This document shows positions 13,613-37,820 of a stretch of DNA of 64,000 bases, one piece after another (the stretch's first letter is position 1; each line of letters begins with the position of its first letter). Origin of the DNA: Cupriavidus taiwanensis LMG 19424. Lineage in GTDB: Bacteria; Pseudomonadota; Gammaproteobacteria; Burkholderiales; Burkholderiaceae. The DNA lies in the NCBI RefSeq assembly GCF_000069785.1, contig NC_010529.1, positions 310,001 to 374,000 of the forward strand, given 5' to 3'. The notes beneath the pieces were generated by a model. It had not been told where the DNA came from, searched no databases, and saw nothing but the letters and a program-made list of their open reading frames with translations. A program made the position numbers and the translations under genes.

Positions 13613-13912
13613 TCAGCCGAACTTGAACTGGATGCCATGTCCGCCTCGCGGGTATTCCCATTCGACGTTACTGTGGTCGGTGCAGAGAATGCGGCAACTG
13701 CCGCATTCGAGGCAGCCGTCGGTAATGAGCGTAACGGCACCGTTGGTCTCAATGCGATAGCAAGAGGCTGGGCAGATGTAGGTGCAGCTTTTGTCGGCAC
13801 AGTTATTGGCGCATACCTCCGCGTTCTTGACATGGATATGTGGCCTACCTACATCCACGCGATAGCGGTTTTGATATAGCTTTTCTTCGATGTTGACTAT
13901 TACTTTTCTCAT
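13613..13912 (-). CDS. fixX: Ferredoxin-like protein FixX
   Basis: FixX is the ferredoxin partner of the FixABC electron-bifurcating flavoprotein complex. The 99-residue product carries CTYICPASCY and CLECGSCRILC, typical of the ETF-QO-associated ferredoxin family. Its ATG overlaps the fixC stop by 4 bp (ATGA), indicating translational coupling. Confidence 0.95.
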   Translation of the reverse strand: MRKVIVNIEEKLYQNRYRVDVGRPHIHVKNAEVCANNCADKSCTYICPASCYRIETNGAVTLITDGCLECGSCRILCTDHSNVEWEYPRGGHGIQFKFG

Positions 13913-15219
13913 CGAAATGCCCTCCAGAGTTTGTACGCGTCGCCAAGAAGGCCGGGCAGAGTCCGGCTCTTTCGAAACTTTCCGATGATTTCATGTTTTT
14001 TCGTCGTCTTATCGATGCCGTCCACGGTAATCATCGTACGTGCTGCGAATGCGAGCAGGTCAGGATACGTCGTAAAGAACTGGGGGTTCTGTCGGAGGAT
14101 CTCTGGCATGTGGCGATATTTGTGTAAATCTTTTATCACGAAGCTCCTATCGAGCGCGCTCTTGTACGCAGAAAGTACCTCGGCGCGGTAGCCACGACCC
14201 ATGGCCTTTGCTCGAATTGCCGTTTCAGCAGCAAGGCGGCCTGTCGTCATTGCTAGGTTAGACCCCTCTCGATGCGCGGAATTGACGAAGCCTCCGGAAT
14301 CGCCCACTATCATCCATCCATTGCCATATACTTTTGGAATCGTATTGAAGCCACCTTCTGGAATCAGATGTGCACAGTACTCCTTCATTTCGCCTCCATC
14401 AATTAGCGGCGCTATCGAGGGGTGGTGCTTCATCTTTTCGAGCAACTCATAAGGGCTCATGCGGTGTACGGAATTCTTGAAGTCACTTAACATGCAACCA
14501 ACGCCGATGGTCAGGGATTCTCTATTTGTATAAAGAAAGCCCGTGCCCGTCATGCCATTGGTGATGCGGCCGACCATTTCAATAGCGACGCCTTCGTCCC
14601 CTGAAACGTTAAAGCGCTGGCGAATGGTTTCCTCGGGAAGAAAGAGAATCTCTTTGACAGCGAGCGCAACGTTATGCGCTTCAATTTCGCTGTGAAATTT
14701 TGCCTTTCGGGCGAGAGTTGAGTTGACGCCATCTGCGAGAATCACAATGTCTGCATACACGTCACCCTCCTCCCGGTCGCAGTGAACGCCGACAACTTGA
14801 TCTCCATCCATAATCAGTTGATTCACCGTCGTCTCGCAGATGAGAAATCCGCCGGCCTCTCGGACCTTTGATGAGAACCATTTATCGAATTGAGCGCGGA
14901 TAATGGTGTAACGGTTGTACGGTGGTTTGTTGTAGTCGTCGCTTCGTACGTGCGTGCCTACGAACGACGTATCGTCGAGCATCCACATGCGTTGCTCAAT
15001 GATGTGCCGCTCGAGCGGTGCGTCGTCGCGAAATTCTGGGATAATTTGTTCGAGGGCATTCGCATAGAGAATCGCTCCCTGAACGTTCTTACTGCCCGGA
15101 TACTCACCGCGCTCAACTTGGAGAACCTTTAGACCGGCCTTGGCCATCAAGTAGGCAGCGGCGTTTCCGGAAGGGCCTGCGCCAACGACAATTACGTCAA
15201 AACGCAAAGGTTCTGTCAT
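13909..15219 (-). CDS. fixC: Flavoprotein FixC (ETF:quinone oxidoreductase-like)
   Basis: FixC is the FAD protein of FixABCX that passes electrons between ETF (FixAB), quinone and FixX, supplying low-potential electrons to nitrogenase. The 436-residue protein has the N-terminal FAD dinucleotide motif [19 protein letters not shown] (about residues 11-29), the second FAD region [10 protein letters not shown] and a late [14 protein letters not shown] motif. It overlaps fixB upstream and fixX downstream by 4 bp each. Confidence 0.96.
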
Positions 15220-16343
15220 TTGACTACCCTCATATGTCTGGACTTATGCTGCGCCAAGTGATCCTCGCAAGCTTGAGTCAATGCAGGCAGTAGTTGCATG
15301 GCATCTCCTACGATACCGTAATGCGCGTAGTCGAAGATTGGTGCGTTTTCATCAGTGTTGATGGCCACGATCACGTCAGAACTTTCCATCCCGACGCGAT
15401 GCTGGATGGCACCGGAAATTCCTGCGGCGATGTAAAGTTTTGGTCGAACGGTTTTACCCGTTTGCCCTACTTGGCGCTCGGCTTCGACCCAGCCAGCTTG
15501 CACGCAGGGGCGAGTCGCACCCACTTCGCCGCCGAGGACACGCGCCAGATTGAAGACCAGCTTGAAGTTTTCAGGGTTCTTAAGGCCCTTTCCCCCACTT
15601 ACAATCACATCCGCATAAGGAAGGTTAATCTTATTGCTTTTTGAATCGGCAATAAAATTGAGCAACTTCGTCACGATGTCGGACTCGATCATACCTAGTT
15701 GCTCATGAATAATCTCTCCGCAACGGCCGGTCTGAACTGGCGGCATCGCCATTACGCGCGGACGGACCGTCGCCATCTGAGGTCGGCATGCAAGTGTCAT
15801 GATCGTACAAAGAAGTGAGCCACCGAAGGTTGGACGAGTGGCCGCAAGAGCGCGCGAGGTAGAGTCTATGCTCAAGCTAGTGCAATCGGCCGTCAGCCCC
15901 GTCGAAAGAGTCGTTGCCACAGAGCCGGCAAGATCTCGACCCATAGTGGTCGCCCCGAGAAGCAGGATCTCCGGACGATATTTGCTAACTAGATCGGTCA
16001 ATCCTTTCGTGAATGGTTCATTCCGATACCCCAGCAACACGGGATCGTGGATCACATACGCCTTATTTGCACCGAAACCAAATGCTTCAGTTGCAAACTG
16101 CTCAAGGGGCTCTTCAGGGCCGCCGAGCGCGACAATTGCTACCTCACTGCCCAGCTTGTCTGCGAGCTTATATGCCTCTCCTAGGAGCTCCCACGACACG
16201 CTATGAACCTGACCCTGATCGTGTTCAAGGAACACCCATACACCCTTGTAAGTTTTCAGGTGCTCAGGCAACTCAAGGTGGCGGTTGCTGCCCCTTCTAA
16301 CGGTGGTGTTCGGCATATTGTGTGAACTAACGGGGGAATTCAT
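15216..16343 (-). CDS. fixB: Electron-transfer flavoprotein alpha subunit FixB
   Basis: FixB is the alpha-ETF subunit that holds FAD with FixA. The 375-residue product has the ETF alpha C-terminal FAD domain ([19 protein letters not shown] and later [16 protein letters not shown], then [21 protein letters not shown]). It overlaps fixA and fixC by 4 bp each, as expected for a tightly coupled complex. Confidence 0.96.
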
Positions 16344-17188
16344 GAGAACCTCTTCATTAACAGGTCTGCCTCCAATGTTGGATGACGGGCCAGGATCTTT
16401 TGAACAAGTTTGTGGGAGACTTCGCGGAGGTTCGCGGCACCCACTTCCAGAATTTCGGCTTTCTCGTCCTTTTGCGCTGGGCCGAAGACTTTGCTGACTA
16501 CGGTGGGCGAGCCTTTGAGCCCAATCCTATTCAAGTCAGTGATGCCGGCTTGTTCTCGATTCCATTTGCGTATCGGAACCGCCGCCGCGTGTATCATCGC
16601 GGGGAGTGTTGCAAAACGTAATTCGTTCGTGTTCTCAAGCATCGTTATGAGACAAGGCAGCGTGGTCTGAAGCACTTGCACGCCTCCTTCCGCACGACGC
16701 TCGACGACGATTGAACGCTTATTTAAATCCGTTTCAACGATCCTTGATACATAGGTAAGCAGTTGGAAGCCGAGCCGTGTCGCAATACCAGGTCCGACTT
16801 GCGCAGTGTCGCCATCGATGGTCTGCTTACCGGTAAAGACCATATCCACTGTTTGTTGAGTCGTGATCTTTTGGATGGCAGCGGCAAGCGCGTAGGACGT
16901 CGCAAGCGTATCAGCTCCGGCGAAAGCGCGGTCGGTAATGAGTATGGCATCGTCAGCGCCGAAGCTGATGCACTTGCGTAGCGCGTCCTCGGCCTGGGGC
17001 GGCCCCATGCATAGCGCCGTGAGTCGTCCGCCGAAGCGGTCCTTCAGCCGTAACGCCTCCTCTAGTGAGAAGAGGTCGTATGGGTTGATGATAGCTGGAA
17101 CGCCTTGGCGCATTATTGTATTGGTCACCGGATGCACCCGAATCTGCGCTGAATCGGGGACTTGCTTGATACAGACAACAATATGCAT
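16340..17188 (-). CDS. fixA: Electron-transfer flavoprotein beta subunit FixA
   Basis: FixA is the beta-ETF subunit of FixABCX, where the bifurcating flavin and NADH bind. The 282-residue protein starts [20 protein letters not shown] and includes the ETF beta signatures [16 protein letters not shown] and [18 protein letters not shown]. It lies 15 bp downstream of nifW and overlaps fixB by 4 bp. Confidence 0.96.
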
Positions 17189-17203: not shown

Positions 17204-17542
17204 TCAGACGGTGTCGCGCTTTCCCACCGAAGCGCGAAGGTTGTCAAGGCTAACGTACCTTCGTGCTTCTGCCTCCCCAAAACACCTGAAAACCTTCTGT
17301 TCCGCTGGCGTTGACGACACGAAATCGTTGTAGGCTTTGAGCAACAAGCTGCGATAAAACTCGAACAGCGCGGTGCCGTTGTCCAAGGGAGGCTCTTCTT
17401 GTTGCTCGATGTACTGGAGGAACCTTTTTAGGATATGTAGACGGCTAACGTTCAAAACTGTTTCGTCGAATGCGATGTCAAAATGCCGAAAAAAGTCCTC
17501 AGTCGAAGAGAGGTGTTGCTGCTGATGGAGGTGTCCTTGCAT
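17204..17542 (-). CDS. nifW: Nitrogenase-protective protein NifW
   Basis: NifW is a small cytoplasmic protein linked to protection or maturation of the MoFe protein. The 112-residue product shows the family pattern TEDFFRHFDIAFDETVLNVSRLHILKRFLQYI and EFYRSLLLKAYNDFV near the middle. It lies between the NifV-derived gene and fixA. I see no sigma-54 site directly upstream, so it is probably transcribed from the promoter at 18748-18763. Confidence 0.93.
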   Translation of the reverse strand: MQGHLHQQQHLSSTEDFFRHFDIAFDETVLNVSRLHILKRFLQYIEQQEEPPLDNGTALFEFYRSLLLKAYNDFVSSTPAEQKVFRCFGEAEARRYVSLDNLRASVGKRDTV

Positions 17543-17650: not shown

Positions 17651-18706
17651 CTAAGAATAGGAATCATTGGCTTTGCTTGATATCTCCGGCGCCTGCTCGC
17701 GTTGTCGCGATAACAACATTTTTGTAACTACTCGGTCCTGGAAAACGGCCTCAGAGTTACCCGAATCTTTGTAATCTGGGTGCGGATGCGTCTTAGCAGG
17801 CAATGCATCGTGCTTGTCGCATCGTCTCAGCCGGGAATCGAAATGGGATACGCGGGAGTGTGTATCCCAACGCCTAACTCGATGGGAGCACATATGCGTT
17901 CTTATTTTTTTCGACGGCACTGCCCAGTGAGACGAATCTTGGGCAAGAGAAGAGATCTGGACGAACGTATTACTATCGACACCTGTATCCTGCTCAATCA
18001 AATGCCGTGAACCCGTCACGACTTCCTTGAGCGCTGCCTTGCCCTTCGGGTGAACCATGCCATTTACCGCTGGGCTCACATGTGGGGCGCTGGAGTTGAG
18101 CGCAGCTAGTGTATGTGCGGTAGCGAGACCGACATCATGTTGCAAATAGATTTCTACATCGTGCAGCCTTGCAATGAGGTCGTAGGCCGAAAACTGGAGA
18201 ATTGCACCAACTTTGTTGGAGAATTGGATCCACTGTTCACCATACATCCTCGGGCGCAGCGCGACTTCCACAAGGAATGAAGGGTGCGGACGCGCAAGGT
18301 TTGCCATACGAATAGAGCTTCCTGTGTGGCATTCCTCTATCTTCCGGATAAGGTACGCGATCAGAGATAATGCCAAAATTCGCGACAGCCGCAGATGGTT
18401 AAAATAGCGATCGGAAACGGAGATGGACAAGTATACAAACTCAGCTTTGCAGCACAGGGCAGCGATTTGCTTGGTGTCTGTCGAGCAGCCGGAAATTGTT
18501 GTTGCCGGCTTGAGGTTTATGTCCCCAGTAGCATCGATAAGCGTTATCTCCTCATCACCCATTGCAAATATTGCTGTAAGCAGCTCCGGAATTTCTCCAT
18601 GCGCGAGTATGCCGGCAATCGCACAATTTTCTTCTATCCGATAAAGGCTCATTGCGGGCCGTTTTAGGCCGGACAATGTTCTCTCGATAATAATCGGTTT
18701 AAGCAT
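17651..18706 (-). CDS. nifV: NifV-derived protein lacking homocitrate synthase active-site motifs
   Basis: This 351-codon frame aligns almost without gaps to NifV for its first 250 residues: KPIII at the start, IFAMGDEEI at about residue 45, PSFLVEVA, AYDLIARL, GLATAHTLAAL, and AALKEVV...DTGVD. The catalytic motifs are altered: the DTTLRDGEQ block reads ERTLSGLKR, ADTVG reads SNKVG, the HxH metal motif region reads YLQHDVG, and THESGIH reads THMCSHR. The last 85 residues show little similarity. It is therefore unlikely to make homocitrate, yet it is uninterrupted and sits 42 bp from a consensus sigma-54 promoter, heading nifW-fixABCX. Either a recent relic or a repurposed protein is possible. 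Confidence 0.8.
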   Translation of the reverse strand: MLKPIIIERTLSGLKRPAMSLYRIEENCAIAGILAHGEIPELLTAIFAMGDEEITLIDATGDINLKPATTISGCSTDTKQIAALCCKAEFVYLSISVSDRYFNHLRLSRILALSLIAYLIRKIEECHTGSSIRMANLARPHPSFLVEVALRPRMYGEQWIQFSNKVGAILQFSAYDLIARLHDVEIYLQHDVGLATAHTLAALNSSAPHVSPAVNGMVHPKGKAALKEVVTGSRHLIEQDTGVDSNTFVQISSLAQDSSHWAVPSKKIRTHMCSHRVRRWDTHSRVSHFDSRLRRCDKHDALPAKTHPHPDYKDSGNSEAVFQDRVVTKMLLSRQREQAPEISSKANDSYS

Positions 18707-19106: not shown

Positions 19107-20678
19107 ATGCGAAATAGGGCGTGCACGCGACCATCGGCTGCCTGTTTTGAAGGCGGGGAGAAAGTTGTGCCCCTAATGCCAACTAGCAGAACATCGGCCC
19201 TACGGGGCGAGGGTACTCCGTCTGTTGGAGCCAGCGTGTTGAAGTGCGAGTCGCCTGGAGAGGCCGAGGGGATGCGGCCGGGGGTGTGGGATAAGATAAA
19301 AGATCATCCGTGCTACTCAGAGGAAGCGCATCACCATTACGCGCGCATGCATGTAGCGGTTGCGCCCGCCTGCAACATTCAGTGCAACTACTGTAACCGC
19401 AAGTACGACTGTTCAAACGAGTCGCGACCTGGCGTTACGTCGAGAAAGCTGACGCCAGAGCAGGCAGTGAAGAAGGTGATGGTTGTCGCGAGTCGCATAC
19501 CGCAACTGACGGTGGTGGGTGTTGCTGGGCCCGGTGATTCGCTCGCGAGCCCAGGAACCACGTTTGAGACGTTCCGTTTGCTTAAGGAGCGAGTTCCCGA
19601 TGTCAAACTATGTCTCTCAACCAATGGCCTCGCGTTGCCTGACTTTGTGGATGACATCTGCCGATACAACATTGATCATGTGACAATAACCATCAACATG
19701 ATCGATCCGGTTGTCGGGGCAAGAATTTACCCGTGGATTTTTTGGAACCGTCGCCGGTTGACAGGGACGGACGCCGCGTGCGTGTTGCATGAGCGGCAGA
19801 TGCAAGGGCTCGAGATGCTAACAGAACGAGGCGTACTGACGAAAATTAATTCGGTGTTGATTCCGGGTATTAACGATAAACATTTGATTGAGGTAAATCG
19901 TGCTGTGAAACAGCGAGGTGCGTTCCTTCACAACATTATGCCGCTAATCTCCGACCCGTCGCACGGTACGTACTTCGGCCTGCACGGACCACGAGGACCT
20001 ACCTCCCGTGAATTGAGGACAGTACAGGAAGCTTGTTCGGGCGGTCTGAAATTGATGCGGCATTGCCGGCAGTGCCGAGCGGACGCGGTAGGACTCTTGG
20101 ATGAGGATCGCGGTGCCGAGTTTTCACTGGAGAGTATCGAGCAGATGGATATCGGCTATGACCGAAACATCCGCCAAGAGTACCAGTTCCGCACGGAGAC
20201 TGAGCTCATGGCGCAACGTGAGGCAAAGCGGGAAGTGCCAGCCTTAACCAAGGTCAGGAAAGCGACAGGAGCACTGAAGGTCAATATCGCCGTTGCAACG
20301 AAAGGCCGGGGTCGCGTGAATGGGCACTTTGGGAATATCTCTGAGCTAAAAATCTTCGAAGTTAGCGCCTCTGGCGCGCACTTTGTGGGTTACCGCCGGG
20401 TTGAATTGTATTGCCAAGGGGGGTACGGTGACGATGAACGACTAGTACGTATCATACGCGCGATCAACGATTGTCATGCCATTTTTGTGGCGAAAATTGG
20501 TATCTGTCCGCGTAAGGAACTCGCCGATGCGGGCATCGAGTCGGTGGAGCAGTACGCGGGGGAAATTGTTGAGGTCGCAGCACGATCTTGGTTCAATGAT
20601 TACTCAAGCCGTGTGGCTGGTGGCGGATCGCTGCGTAAACATTGCGACGAGACGCATGATCAGGCAAAGGATGTCTAA
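19107..20678 (+). CDS. nifB: FeMo-cofactor core synthase NifB
   Basis: NifB is the radical SAM enzyme that fuses two [4Fe-4S] clusters with a carbide into NifB-co. From the ATG at 19107 the protein has 523 residues. The SAM cluster motif is Cys89-Cys93-Cys96 (CNIQCNYC), preceded by HPCYSEEAHHHYARMH. A NifX-like domain occupies about residues 395-500 (VNIAVATKGRGRVNGHFGNI). The start has AAGGAAAG just upstream and follows the sigma-54 promoter; the frame is open further upstream from 18756, but that part is promoter DNA. Confidence 0.97.
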   Translation: MRNRACTRPSAACFEGGEKVVPLMPTSRTSALRGEGTPSVGASVLKCESPGEAEGMRPGVWDKIKDHPCYSEEAHHHYARMHVAVAPACNIQCNYCNRKYDCSNESRPGVTSRKLTPEQAVKKVMVVASRIPQLTVVGVAGPGDSLASPGTTFETFRLLKERVPDVKLCLSTNGLALPDFVDDICRYNIDHVTITINMIDPVVGARIYPWIFWNRRRLTGTDAACVLHERQMQGLEMLTERGVLTKINSVLIPGINDKHLIEVNRAVKQRGAFLHNIMPLISDPSHGTYFGLHGPRGPTSRELRTVQEACSGGLKLMRHCRQCRADAVGLLDEDRGAEFSLESIEQMDIGYDRNIRQEYQFRTETELMAQREAKREVPALTKVRKATGALKVNIAVATKGRGRVNGHFGNISELKIFEVSASGAHFVGYRRVELYCQGGYGDDERLVRIIRAINDCHAIFVAKIGICPRKELADAGIESVEQYAGEIVEVAARSWFNDYSSRVAGGGSLRKHCDETHDQAKDV

Positions 20679-34896: not shown

Positions 34897-37260
34897 TTAA
34901 CTGAGAACTTGGACGCGTTGAGCTGCACATTCGAGTCGAATAACGCGTGCGTTCCGCCATTGCTCAAAGCGGCTGCCGGCGCCGATAACGGCGGGAACAC
35001 CAAGTTCACGCGCTCTGATTGACATATGTGAATTTTCGCCACCGTACTTCGTGATAAATCCCTTGACGCCGTGCGTGAATATCCAGTCAAAACCGGGGTC
35101 AGCATTTTCCATAAAAACGATGCTGTCCTTGAACGACGAACCATGTACATCCGTCACAAGCCCCTCAACTGTGAGCGCGGTGATGAAGCTCGGGCGGGAG
35201 TGGAAGACATGGAAGCCGAAGATGTCTTTTGGGGAGCACAAAAGATCAGGAAGGCGGAGATATCTGGTTGTTTCCCAGTGCTGTCGATTTCTCTCGACTG
35301 CAGACCGCAGAAAGGTCGAAGGATTGGAGCGAATCTCTAAAGAGAATGCAATGTCGGGCATCGTAAGGAACGACAGATCGTCTCTGCTAAGACCAAGATT
35401 TGCTCCAACGAGTGCGAGCATCTCCAAGGCGTCCGAAATTAGACGGCTAAAAGAATGTTTGACGCGTTCACGGCCCTGAATCGCCTTCATTGCAAAGGCT
35501 TCAAATATCGGCCAATCGAAAGCGTAGCCGGTTCGATCGAACTCGGAAGAAAGGGCCGATATCTGGGCAGGTGACAGAGCTAAGTCAATGGCGGATACTT
35601 CTGTCGTCTCCTCTTTGATGGTGCGATTCATCCAGTCGAAGTATTTACTAATAGGATCGTCGTATCGAGGAACGGTGATCTCGTATGTGCCAGGGCGAAT
35701 ATGGCCGTGCAAATTTAAAAATTCTGCAGGCTGTAGTGCAAAAAAATCGTTTACTAGTTGGGCTGCAACGGAGTCGGAGGCGCGCACGACGGCATCCAGG
35801 AACCCCGGGCGAAGCAATTTCTCAGACTCTAATGACTTGAGAATGTCCGTCGCTACGAAGGCCGCTCTCGCAATCTCAGAGAATAGCACTGTGCCATGCA
35901 CGTGCACTTTTTCGATCAGCGACAGGACATCAAGCAATCCGTGGTCCTCATTCCAATTTGTAAATTTTGCAGTGGATTCTAACGCTTCGATGCCGTGTCT
36001 AGCACGATCAAAGAGGTCATCGCCAGTGATAATGCGGTTCGTTAAAGCACGTAGCAGGTCTAGGTACGATGCCCATTCGTTCTCAGAAAGGCTTGGGAAT
36101 AGCTCGCGCCAATGACCGTCCCTCATTCTTGGTTTGAGGCAAGTTGGAACAACGCGAAATTCTATTTTGTCATGAAGCTCTGGCTTAAGAATTAAATTGC
36201 GTTGAGCATCGGTGATGATTTTTTTTGCTATGGAATTGGGCAATGCGGCCGGTAGAAAAGAGGCGACGCTTGCTGATACAGAAACATATGGTGTGCCGCC
36301 AATCATATGCATTAGGGGAACTGCGCGCAAATCTCGGTACCCGAAATTTGCCCGCGCGGAAGCCCACGCGGTATTAGTGAACAGGTGACGAAAGAGGGAG
36401 GCGGCCAATGGCCGTGGCTTAGTTCCTATCAACTCGGCGGGGTTCACATCCGGCATGACTCCAAGAACTTCCCCTACGAGTCCCTGGCGGTTATTGAAGC
36501 TGTTGACGTCCTCAATCGACGCTTCAACGCCATTCAGTGATTGGAGAAGCATGGCAAGGTGGCCTGCGCTGTATCCACATCTCCGCGGGGCTGTTATGGG
36601 CCGTACCTGGAAGATCACCACGGTTCCATTATTCGAGATCCCGAATTCGATATCTACCTCTTTAATGCCAACAATTTCGATCACTTCTTCTATTGCTGGC
36701 ACCAAACGCCGGAGAGGCTCCGGTGCATCGTGGCCCGGTACAAATATGTAAGTGCGGGTGCCGTTTCCACCAGAAGTCACAACTGTAGTATCGCCGCTCT
36801 CATCGTAGCTAACAATATAGTATGGAAGGCCAGATTCAGGGTCGCATGTCATGACAACGCCACTTACCGCGATATCTTTGGCCATCGGTTGGACGAACAC
36901 CTCGTCGGATGGCAATAGGGTGCCGTACGAAGAGAACACATCATCTATTGCTTGAATCAGTTGCTCATCGGTACGGACATTTAATACAGAAAGGTACTGG
37001 CCGGCTTTGGATTGCTCCAGACTATCCTCGGATGCTGCGCTAGATCTAACTGCTAGAGGATCCGATATTCCGAAAGAAATTTTTATTAATTTGACAATCT
37101 TTGTGGAACTTGTGCTCCATTGTGCATGCGTCACACGATGAAGCGGATAAACGTCGAATTTAGAGGCGGCTGCTCTGAGTGCGATTAATGTTTTCGCTTT
37201 TGTGTTTTTGAAGGGGGCGGCGTCTGGGAAAATCCTCATGGAGGAGTTTGATTTGTCCAA
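34897..37260 (-). CDS. Dikinase-type phosphotransferase with rifampin-phosphotransferase-like domain order
   Basis: The 787-residue protein begins with a PEP synthase/PPDK-type ATP-binding domain: VRSSAASEDS at residues 71-80, SGVVMTCDP, and DIEFG...IFQVRPIT near residue 220. A long middle region (about 230-690) follows. The swivelling phospho-histidine domain is at the extreme C-terminus: GGENSHMSIRARELGVPAVIG with His745. The PEP-binding TIM barrel of PEP synthase is absent. ATP-grasp, acceptor domain, His domain is the order of rifampin phosphotransferase, suggesting transfer of phosphate to a small molecule. The TTG at 37260 has GGAG 10 bases upstream; the ATG at 37239 has none. It converges on the TPP gene. 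Confidence 0.75.
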   Translation of the reverse strand: MDKSNSSMRIFPDAAPFKNTKAKTLIALRAAASKFDVYPLHRVTHAQWSTSSTKIVKLIKISFGISDPLAVRSSAASEDSLEQSKAGQYLSVLNVRTDEQLIQAIDDVFSSYGTLLPSDEVFVQPMAKDIAVSGVVMTCDPESGLPYYIVSYDESGDTTVVTSGGNGTRTYIFVPGHDAPEPLRRLVPAIEEVIEIVGIKEVDIEFGISNNGTVVIFQVRPITAPRRCGYSAGHLAMLLQSLNGVEASIEDVNSFNNRQGLVGEVLGVMPDVNPAELIGTKPRPLAASLFRHLFTNTAWASARANFGYRDLRAVPLMHMIGGTPYVSVSASVASFLPAALPNSIAKKIITDAQRNLILKPELHDKIEFRVVPTCLKPRMRDGHWRELFPSLSENEWASYLDLLRALTNRIITGDDLFDRARHGIEALESTAKFTNWNEDHGLLDVLSLIEKVHVHGTVLFSEIARAAFVATDILKSLESEKLLRPGFLDAVVRASDSVAAQLVNDFFALQPAEFLNLHGHIRPGTYEITVPRYDDPISKYFDWMNRTIKEETTEVSAIDLALSPAQISALSSEFDRTGYAFDWPIFEAFAMKAIQGRERVKHSFSRLISDALEMLALVGANLGLSRDDLSFLTMPDIAFSLEIRSNPSTFLRSAVERNRQHWETTRYLRLPDLLCSPKDIFGFHVFHSRPSFITALTVEGLVTDVHGSSFKDSIVFMENADPGFDWIFTHGVKGFITKYGGENSHMSIRARELGVPAVIGAGSRFEQWRNARVIRLECAAQRVQVLS

Positions 37261-37820
37261 GTTATTGATCTCCAGGCTAATAATATGTTCCGTATTTTTG
37301 GTGTGATTTGTGGTCCAAATGCAGCGAAATTATGTGGCATTAGGTAAATTTCCACATCGACGCGCCGCAAGTACATAGAGCAACATGCGTGCCAAACCTA
37401 AACACATAAATGCTCACAACTCAATGGATTGATTGAGAGCGGGGACTTCGAAGGAAATGACAAGCCGATCGTGGGCCGTTGAATGTCTATGAGGGGTGGC
37501 GTGGACCTTCAACGCGCCCGGCATGAGTGGACTATTCGGGCCTTCGGTACTGGCTGCGGGCTTTGGCTGGGTCTCGATAGGCTGTGCGCATTTTGATCGA
37601 GACAATTAGCAATGATCCGTTTGCTTATATAGTAAAGGCACTCTTTACTTTATTTATTGGTATGTCGCTATATGATCAATGGCGGCGACTATTGGTTGGA
37701 AAGACGACGATTTTGTCGTAAAGCAGACTTTTGCTGCTACATTGGTGACCGCGAAACCATGGCAACACCATTTCGACAAACATGCCAAGGTTGCCGTCCT
37801 GTTTAGGCATTTTGTTTGGT
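37261..37820. other. Intergenic region upstream of the phosphotransferase gene
   Basis: About 560 bp without a supportable gene. It must contain the promoter of the minus-strand phosphotransferase gene; I see no nod box, exact NifA site or clear sigma-54 site. Confidence 0.45.

Follow-up and report, generated by a model that had tools for sequence, protein, structure and literature searches.

In Paraburkholderia phymatum, nifV heads the nifW-fixABCX operon and is reported to be dispensable in Mimosa pudica (PMC8073898). According to the mutant data given there, a forward nifV mutant retained 73.6% of wild-type nitrogenase activity in M. pudica, and a reverse mutant, whose downstream genes are not driven by the cassette, showed 6.9% activity, which indicates that P. 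phymatum can do without NifV with this host while the genes behind it are needed (PMC8073898). In strain STM815 (pBPHY02), nifV is divergent from nifB, stands first before nifW-fixABCX and has a -24/-12-type site ahead of it. A nifV-related gene of Cupriavidus taiwanensis LMG 19424 holds this same nifV-type position in front of nifW-fixABCX. The two products share approximately 40% identity over residues 1–267, but STM815 NifV possesses the motifs that the LMG 19424 protein lacks and reaches 508.8 bits with the NifV profile, above its cut-off.

Nitrogen fixation with M. pudica is documented for C. taiwanensis LMG 19424 and STM 6018 (PMC10011098), and activity of LMG 19424 is also described in PMC12802222. 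The translated NifV of strains AMP6 and UYPR2.512 is given as 77.89% and 48.13% identical to that of LMG 19424, respectively, in a syntenic cluster, and the part of the paper that lists these identities does not call the gene inactive (PMC10011098). In the open-licence literature, covered by titles and the beginnings of abstracts, we found no account of a dead nifV in Cupriavidus. Both plasmid records that match the LMG 19424 gene annotate it as homocitrate synthase, a label that would lead one to misread C. taiwanensis as a producer of the homocitrate that its nitrogenase cofactor requires.

The related genes of Cupriavidus sp. amp6 and C. taiwanensis STM 8555 carry the same annotation. They resemble the LMG 19424 gene in their open frames and shared lesions (77% and 72% identity, respectively), but each shows its own amino-acid drift, and the STM 8555 gene has a 1-nt deletion near its 3' end. 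Unitary bacterial pseudogenes provide a further parallel, being inactivated in place, with no intact second copy and an omega of about 1; unlike them, the LMG 19424 gene has kept its frame beyond what neutral drift would lead one to expect. What seems to be new here is a unitary pseudogene, by its amino acids, whose reading frame still appears to be under selection.

Results

We analysed a window of 64,000 nucleotides, the whole stretch of DNA to which all coordinates refer unless another sequence is named, which is contained in a 557,200-base replicon, presumably pRALTA of C. taiwanensis LMG 19424. A preliminary description of the window had reported a gene of 351 codons with no stop, and this is borne out on the minus strand, where the nifV-related frame is open from 18706 to 17651; the plus strand has several stops across 17651–18706. 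This gene, hereafter the relic, is followed on the same strand by nifW (17204..17542), fixA (16340..17188), fixB (15216..16343), fixC (13909..15219) and fixX (13613..13912). Divergent from it, on the plus strand, lies nifB (19272..20678, with the start as annotated in the identical stretch of plasmid NZ_CP016951). The 4.7 kb surrounding the relic are 100% identical to this C. taiwanensis plasmid, which comes from Mimosa nodules.

Three haplotypes, the window's allele (WIN) and those of genomes G039 and G056, make up what we call the open-frame clade, or the crown of the tree, and the relics of G043 and G038 form a sister clade. Ahead of the relic on the minus strand stand, in order, the TGT-N10-ACA site TGTCCGGACAGAGACA (18874–18859), which we take to be of the NifA upstream-activator type, the -24/-12 (sigma-54-type) promoter TGGCACAACGCTTGCT (18763–18748) and a 10-codon upstream ORF (18731–18699). 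The consensus sigma-54 promoter of the preliminary description is confirmed: TGGCACAACGCTTGCT has no mismatch, starts 57 nt before the ATG and is conserved among relics, being unchanged throughout the open-frame relics and in G038 and differing at one position in G043. By count alone such sites are unremarkable, as the window holds five with at most one mismatch against 3.3 expected. A scan for -24/-12-type sites only, with at most one mismatch, found no second one within the operon on the relic's strand. The TGTCCGGACAGAGACA site does not vary among the open-frame relics, G043 and G038, and genome G010 has a different TGT-N10-ACA site at a comparable position. The upstream ORF is present in WIN, G039 and G056; its 8-nt overlap with the relic's start would make translational coupling possible. 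In G043 and G038, the ATG that matches that of the upstream ORF shares the nifV frame. Besides TGGCACAACGCTTGCT, a single perfect -24/-12 site occurs in the window (37379–37394, minus strand), approximately 120 nt before an ORF of 787 amino acids (34897–37260, minus strand) with the Pfam domains PPDK_N and PEP-utilizers.

The proposed relation to NifV over some 250 residues, and with it the family placement, holds: the relic product matches the NifV profile TIGR02660 over residues 18–267 with E = 1.9e-30, although at 106.4 bits it stays below the cut-off of 462.9. It also matches PF00682 (50.9 bits, cut-off 29). When aligned with six intact NifV proteins, five from Paraburkholderia and one from Cupriavidus, the relic shows ERTLSGLKR for DTTLRDGEQ, SNKVG for ADTVG/ADTLG, YLQHD for HAHND/HAHDD and NGMVHPKGK for NGLGERAGN, the first three replacements being those already described (the third as the HxHxD region). 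The residues lost in this way are presumably the catalytic Arg and the metal-binding Asp and His. A further reported change, THESGIH to THMCSHR, turned out to be an unsafe comparison, as the last 84 residues, past residue 267, gave no reliable alignment to NifV and MAFFT pairs THESGIH with THSRVSH instead. A C-terminal frameshift was considered as the source of the odd tail and set aside, since the three crown haplotypes hold one frame to nt 1011; because the tail does not align reliably to NifV, an older frame change may remain in it.

A search of the relic's own genome for a second homocitrate synthase with the NifV model (E ≤ 0.001) gave eight matches, none of them above the cut-off, and the remaining seven, apart from the relic, bear the names 2-isopropylmalate synthase (two), HMG-CoA lyase (three), 4-hydroxy-2-oxovalerate aldolase (one) and pyruvate carboxylase (one). 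As in a unitary pseudogene, no intact second copy was thus found in this genome. With its motifs replaced and its score far below the NifV cut-off, the sequence supports the earlier claim that the gene is a nifV whose catalysis has been lost. The opposite reading, in which other residues serve an active homocitrate synthase or a related enzyme with a changed substrate, could draw on the alignable core of residues 18–267 and on how the two plasmid records annotate the gene, but neither RDGEQ nor HAH is retained, the last 84 residues cannot be aligned and the gene evolves as if neutral, so that this reading can hardly be credited.

Among 60 Cupriavidus genomes, ten had matches to the relic protein at E ≤ 0.001. 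The match in G014 was dropped as a nifV candidate, as it scores as a 2-isopropylmalate synthase (593 bits, cut-off 532). The degenerate allele, sought in related strains, recurs as identical DNA in L002, G023, G032 and G055, and in these, as in the window, the 351 codons are open, so that the disrupted frame of a typical unitary pseudogene is not found. The G039 and G056 relics are 77% and 73% identical to that of the window, the latter being identical to the STM 8555 relic, and those of G043 and G038 are 48–49% identical over part of their length and have an early 2-nt deletion in common. In G010, only a remnant of nifV lies between nifB and nifW (L040, 8345–9147). Here, the -24/-12 site, the TGT-N10-ACA site and the start are kept, a 37-codon ORF is followed by 205 untranslated nt before nifW (319 nt from the ATG to the nifW start), and LRQGG and, out of frame, IGIPATDEDG are what remains of the protein; this looks like a separate and more advanced loss. 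G004 has an intact NifV (521 bits).

Nine of the 60 genomes have a nifH match above the cut-off and G038 has the gene split in two, giving ten nifH-bearing genomes; the remaining 50 had weak matches only (best E 3.6e-8). Nine of the ten also carry nodA, the exception being G004, and G004 is the one genome of the ten with a match above the cut-off of the NifV model. In other words, none of the nine nodA-bearing Cupriavidus (the window's genome and eight others) has a NifV above the cut-off, in what is a small sample of nine genomes from one genus. Nor are these nine independent losses, because one and the same allele is found in four of them and the RDGEQ and HAH lesions are common to eight.

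Two of the lesions, RDGEQ to CGP.. and HAH to Y.Q, are common to the open-frame clade and the G043/G038 clade, the window's allele having changed further. Since both lineages carry them, the inactivation predates their split, and the loss of nifV, judged from these shared lesions, is old. The suggestion that the gene is a recent relic was therefore wrong.

Some nif and fix genes appear broken in the sister clade. In G038 (L026), nifH is spread over two frames with a TAG and nifB is in pieces, and in G043 (L025), nifW and fixC are each in two frames; either the nif cluster is decaying in these genomes or these are assembly errors.

In the window's clade, the relic now drifts freely in its amino-acid sequence. 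For the three crown pairs, NG86 omega is 0.91–1.05 (Ks 0.11–0.14), against 0.01–0.23 for seven neighbour genes in the same pairs (Ks 0.08–0.17). Maximum-likelihood (ML) estimates agree, with omega at 1.10–1.42 for the relic, not different from 1 (p 0.14–0.69), and at 0.12–0.24 for nifW, fixA, fixB and nifB (0.17–0.22 for nifW itself); the nifW-fix genes of the operon are thus under normal constraint. Variable sites in the relic are spread evenly over codon positions 1, 2 and 3 (62/60/53). In a tree model of 272 codons and 11 sequences, omega is 0.086 on the background branches of intact NifV, 0.15 on the branch to symbiotic Cupriavidus, 0.53 on the stems, 0.50 on the G043/G038 tips and 1.31 in the crown, the last value differing from the background (p = 8e-35) but not from 1 (p = 0.18). 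The crown has accordingly lost the amino-acid constraint, as is expected of a unitary pseudogene, with the stems as a caveat.

The preliminary description had raised the idea of a non-catalytic protein with a new role, and it is on the older branches that this idea finds some room. The joint stem omega of 0.53, on branches after the loss of the catalytic motifs, differs from 1 (p = 5e-4); taken separately, the two stems give 0.49 (p = 0.07) and 0.71 (p = 0.79). The G043/G038 tips also lie below 1 (p = 0.04), and pairwise ML omega is 0.68 for WIN–G038 (p = 0.014), 0.66 for G056–G038 (p = 0.009) and 0.54 for G043–G038 (p = 0.051). Fewer nonsynonymous changes occurred on the stem path than when placed at random (142 vs 155.8, P = 0.018), and replacements leaned towards the conservative on the branch to G039 (P = 0.027) and on the tip of G038 (P = 0.033). 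This residual constraint reflects either weak selection that outlasted the loss of the motifs or a long-branch bias in the estimate. Within the crown, a new role is unsupported: omega is about 1, the codon positions are flat, and conservative replacement, looked for as a sign of hidden function, is absent from the WIN and G056 branches, where replacements were no more conservative than random (P = 0.40 and 0.63). A C. taiwanensis protein allele, P0005, moreover lacks 119 internal residues in frame and has an altered tail beyond the counterpart of residue 315 of 351. At relic residues 82 and 201, two AAL-coding points bound the lost stretch, which is what a deletion between short repeats would leave. 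The plasmid and genome collections that we scanned contained DNA neither of this allele nor of P0002, and both are known as proteins only. A partner in cofactor or electron-transfer assembly, for example, under weak or partial constraint, would fit the kept frame and the older branches, but the crown omega and the P0005 allele speak against such a protein, and we consider it improbable.

The reading frame behaves differently from the amino acids. We redistributed the substitutions observed on the three crown branches (71, 39 and 64) at random along 1011 nt, each to a site with the same base, and 4.73 stops were expected where none is seen (P = 0.0075). Between the crown node and G043, the expectation was 5.0 stops and again none is found (P = 0.005); with half of the changes counted, the expectation falls to 2.8 (P = 0.054). 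Indels tell the same story: none with a length not divisible by three accompanies the 174 substitutions in nt 1–1011, where the sole crown indel is of 15 nt, compared with 13 per 112 substitutions in the flanks (Fisher p = 8e-6). Two other gap settings gave 14 per 121 and 14 per 119 in the flanks (p = 6e-6 and 5e-6). The flank control covers only about 660 bp and the frame tests were run after the open frame had already been seen, so that the evidence for frame conservation is strong but not final.

Changes of frame within the open-frame clade are confined to the region near the 3' end, namely the 1-nt deletion of G056, which lies past nt 1011, and the altered tail of P0005, inferred from its protein. 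The distance from the relic to nifW is 108 nt in the window, 141 nt in G039 and 113 nt in G056. In G043 and G038, the early 2-nt deletion gives the first ORF a new stop 8 nt behind the restart ATG of a second ORF, which ends 40 nt before nifW in G038 and beyond the nifW start in G043.

For the open-frame clade, we thus observe a frame conserved without amino-acid constraint. It had been suggested that the frame was kept open by chance, that is, that the gene is a plain unitary pseudogene with a frame still open by luck and a promoter kept for nifW-fixABCX. An omega of about 1 and flat codon positions are what such a gene would show, other lineages do have frame lesions (G043, G038, G010 and the 3' end of G056), and on each crown branch alone the absence of stops is unremarkable (P = 0.14, 0.30 and 0.18). 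The three branches taken together, and the lack of frameshift-size indels where the flanks have many, are nevertheless difficult to reconcile with luck; an open frame by chance is unlikely, and we leave this explanation a limited share of the probability. In this clade, neutral amino acids combined with a conserved frame make neither a new protein role nor chance likely.

Discussion

The reading that we favour, by a modest degree of confidence, is that of a dead nifV kept translatable as the leader of the nifW-fixABCX operon, with Mimosa supplying the homocitrate. A stricter form, for which we would give slightly less than an even chance, holds that the relic is selected solely for being translatable, its protein being irrelevant and stops and frameshifts being purged for the sake of nifW-fixABCX transcription. 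In this scenario, nifV would have been inactivated before the two symbiotic Cupriavidus lineages split, and its loss would have been tolerated as the Mimosa host presumably supplies homocitrate in the nodule. Selection on nifW-fixABCX would retain the promoter, and, with the relic as the first cistron of a nifV-nifW-fixABCX operon, would probably also purge stops and frameshifts, because ribosomes crossing the leader of about 1 kb may protect nifW and fixABCX from being silenced by Rho or other polarity. The relic product itself would need no activity.

From the forward and reverse nifV mutants of P. phymatum, we infer that selection on the enzyme was relaxed by homocitrate from the host, the downstream genes still being needed. 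The link to host homocitrate made in the preliminary description is supported by this published work, which concerns P. phymatum and not LMG 19424 (PMC8073898). The Mimosa symbionts P. phymatum, P. phenoliruptrix and P. sabiae have kept nifV on their symbiotic plasmids, which argues that a Mimosa host alone does not force the loss. Taken as a whole, the earlier interpretation thus stands as to lost catalysis and the host, and fails as to a recent relic; chance is unlikely, and a new role is unsupported in the window's clade, with the room left by the older branches.

Three observations run against a leader kept for translation. It does not account for the constraint on the older branches (omega 0.53), G043 and G038 have an early frameshift, and in G010 nifV is cut to its 37-codon ORF with untranslated sequence ahead of nifW; the 205 untranslated nt in G010 suggest that a short leader can do without translational cover.

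As read from their genes, C. taiwanensis and likewise the nine nodA-bearing Cupriavidus would lack a NifV route to homocitrate. Symbiotic Cupriavidus parallel the alpha-rhizobia without nifV, and present the stages of its loss, an open relic, a frameshifted one and one mostly deleted, beside an intact relative. If the leader reading is true, the relic is a natural instance of selection on a frame without selection on amino acids, in which one could test how strongly operon polarity alone preserves an ORF and how far an open frame implies a functional protein.

The reverse case occurs in P. sprentiae WSM5005 (L004, 6001–8030), where nifV is intact, nifW gave no match, and fixC and fixX are fragmented and in different frames; in this copy, the enzyme gene has evidently been kept while the fix genes decayed.
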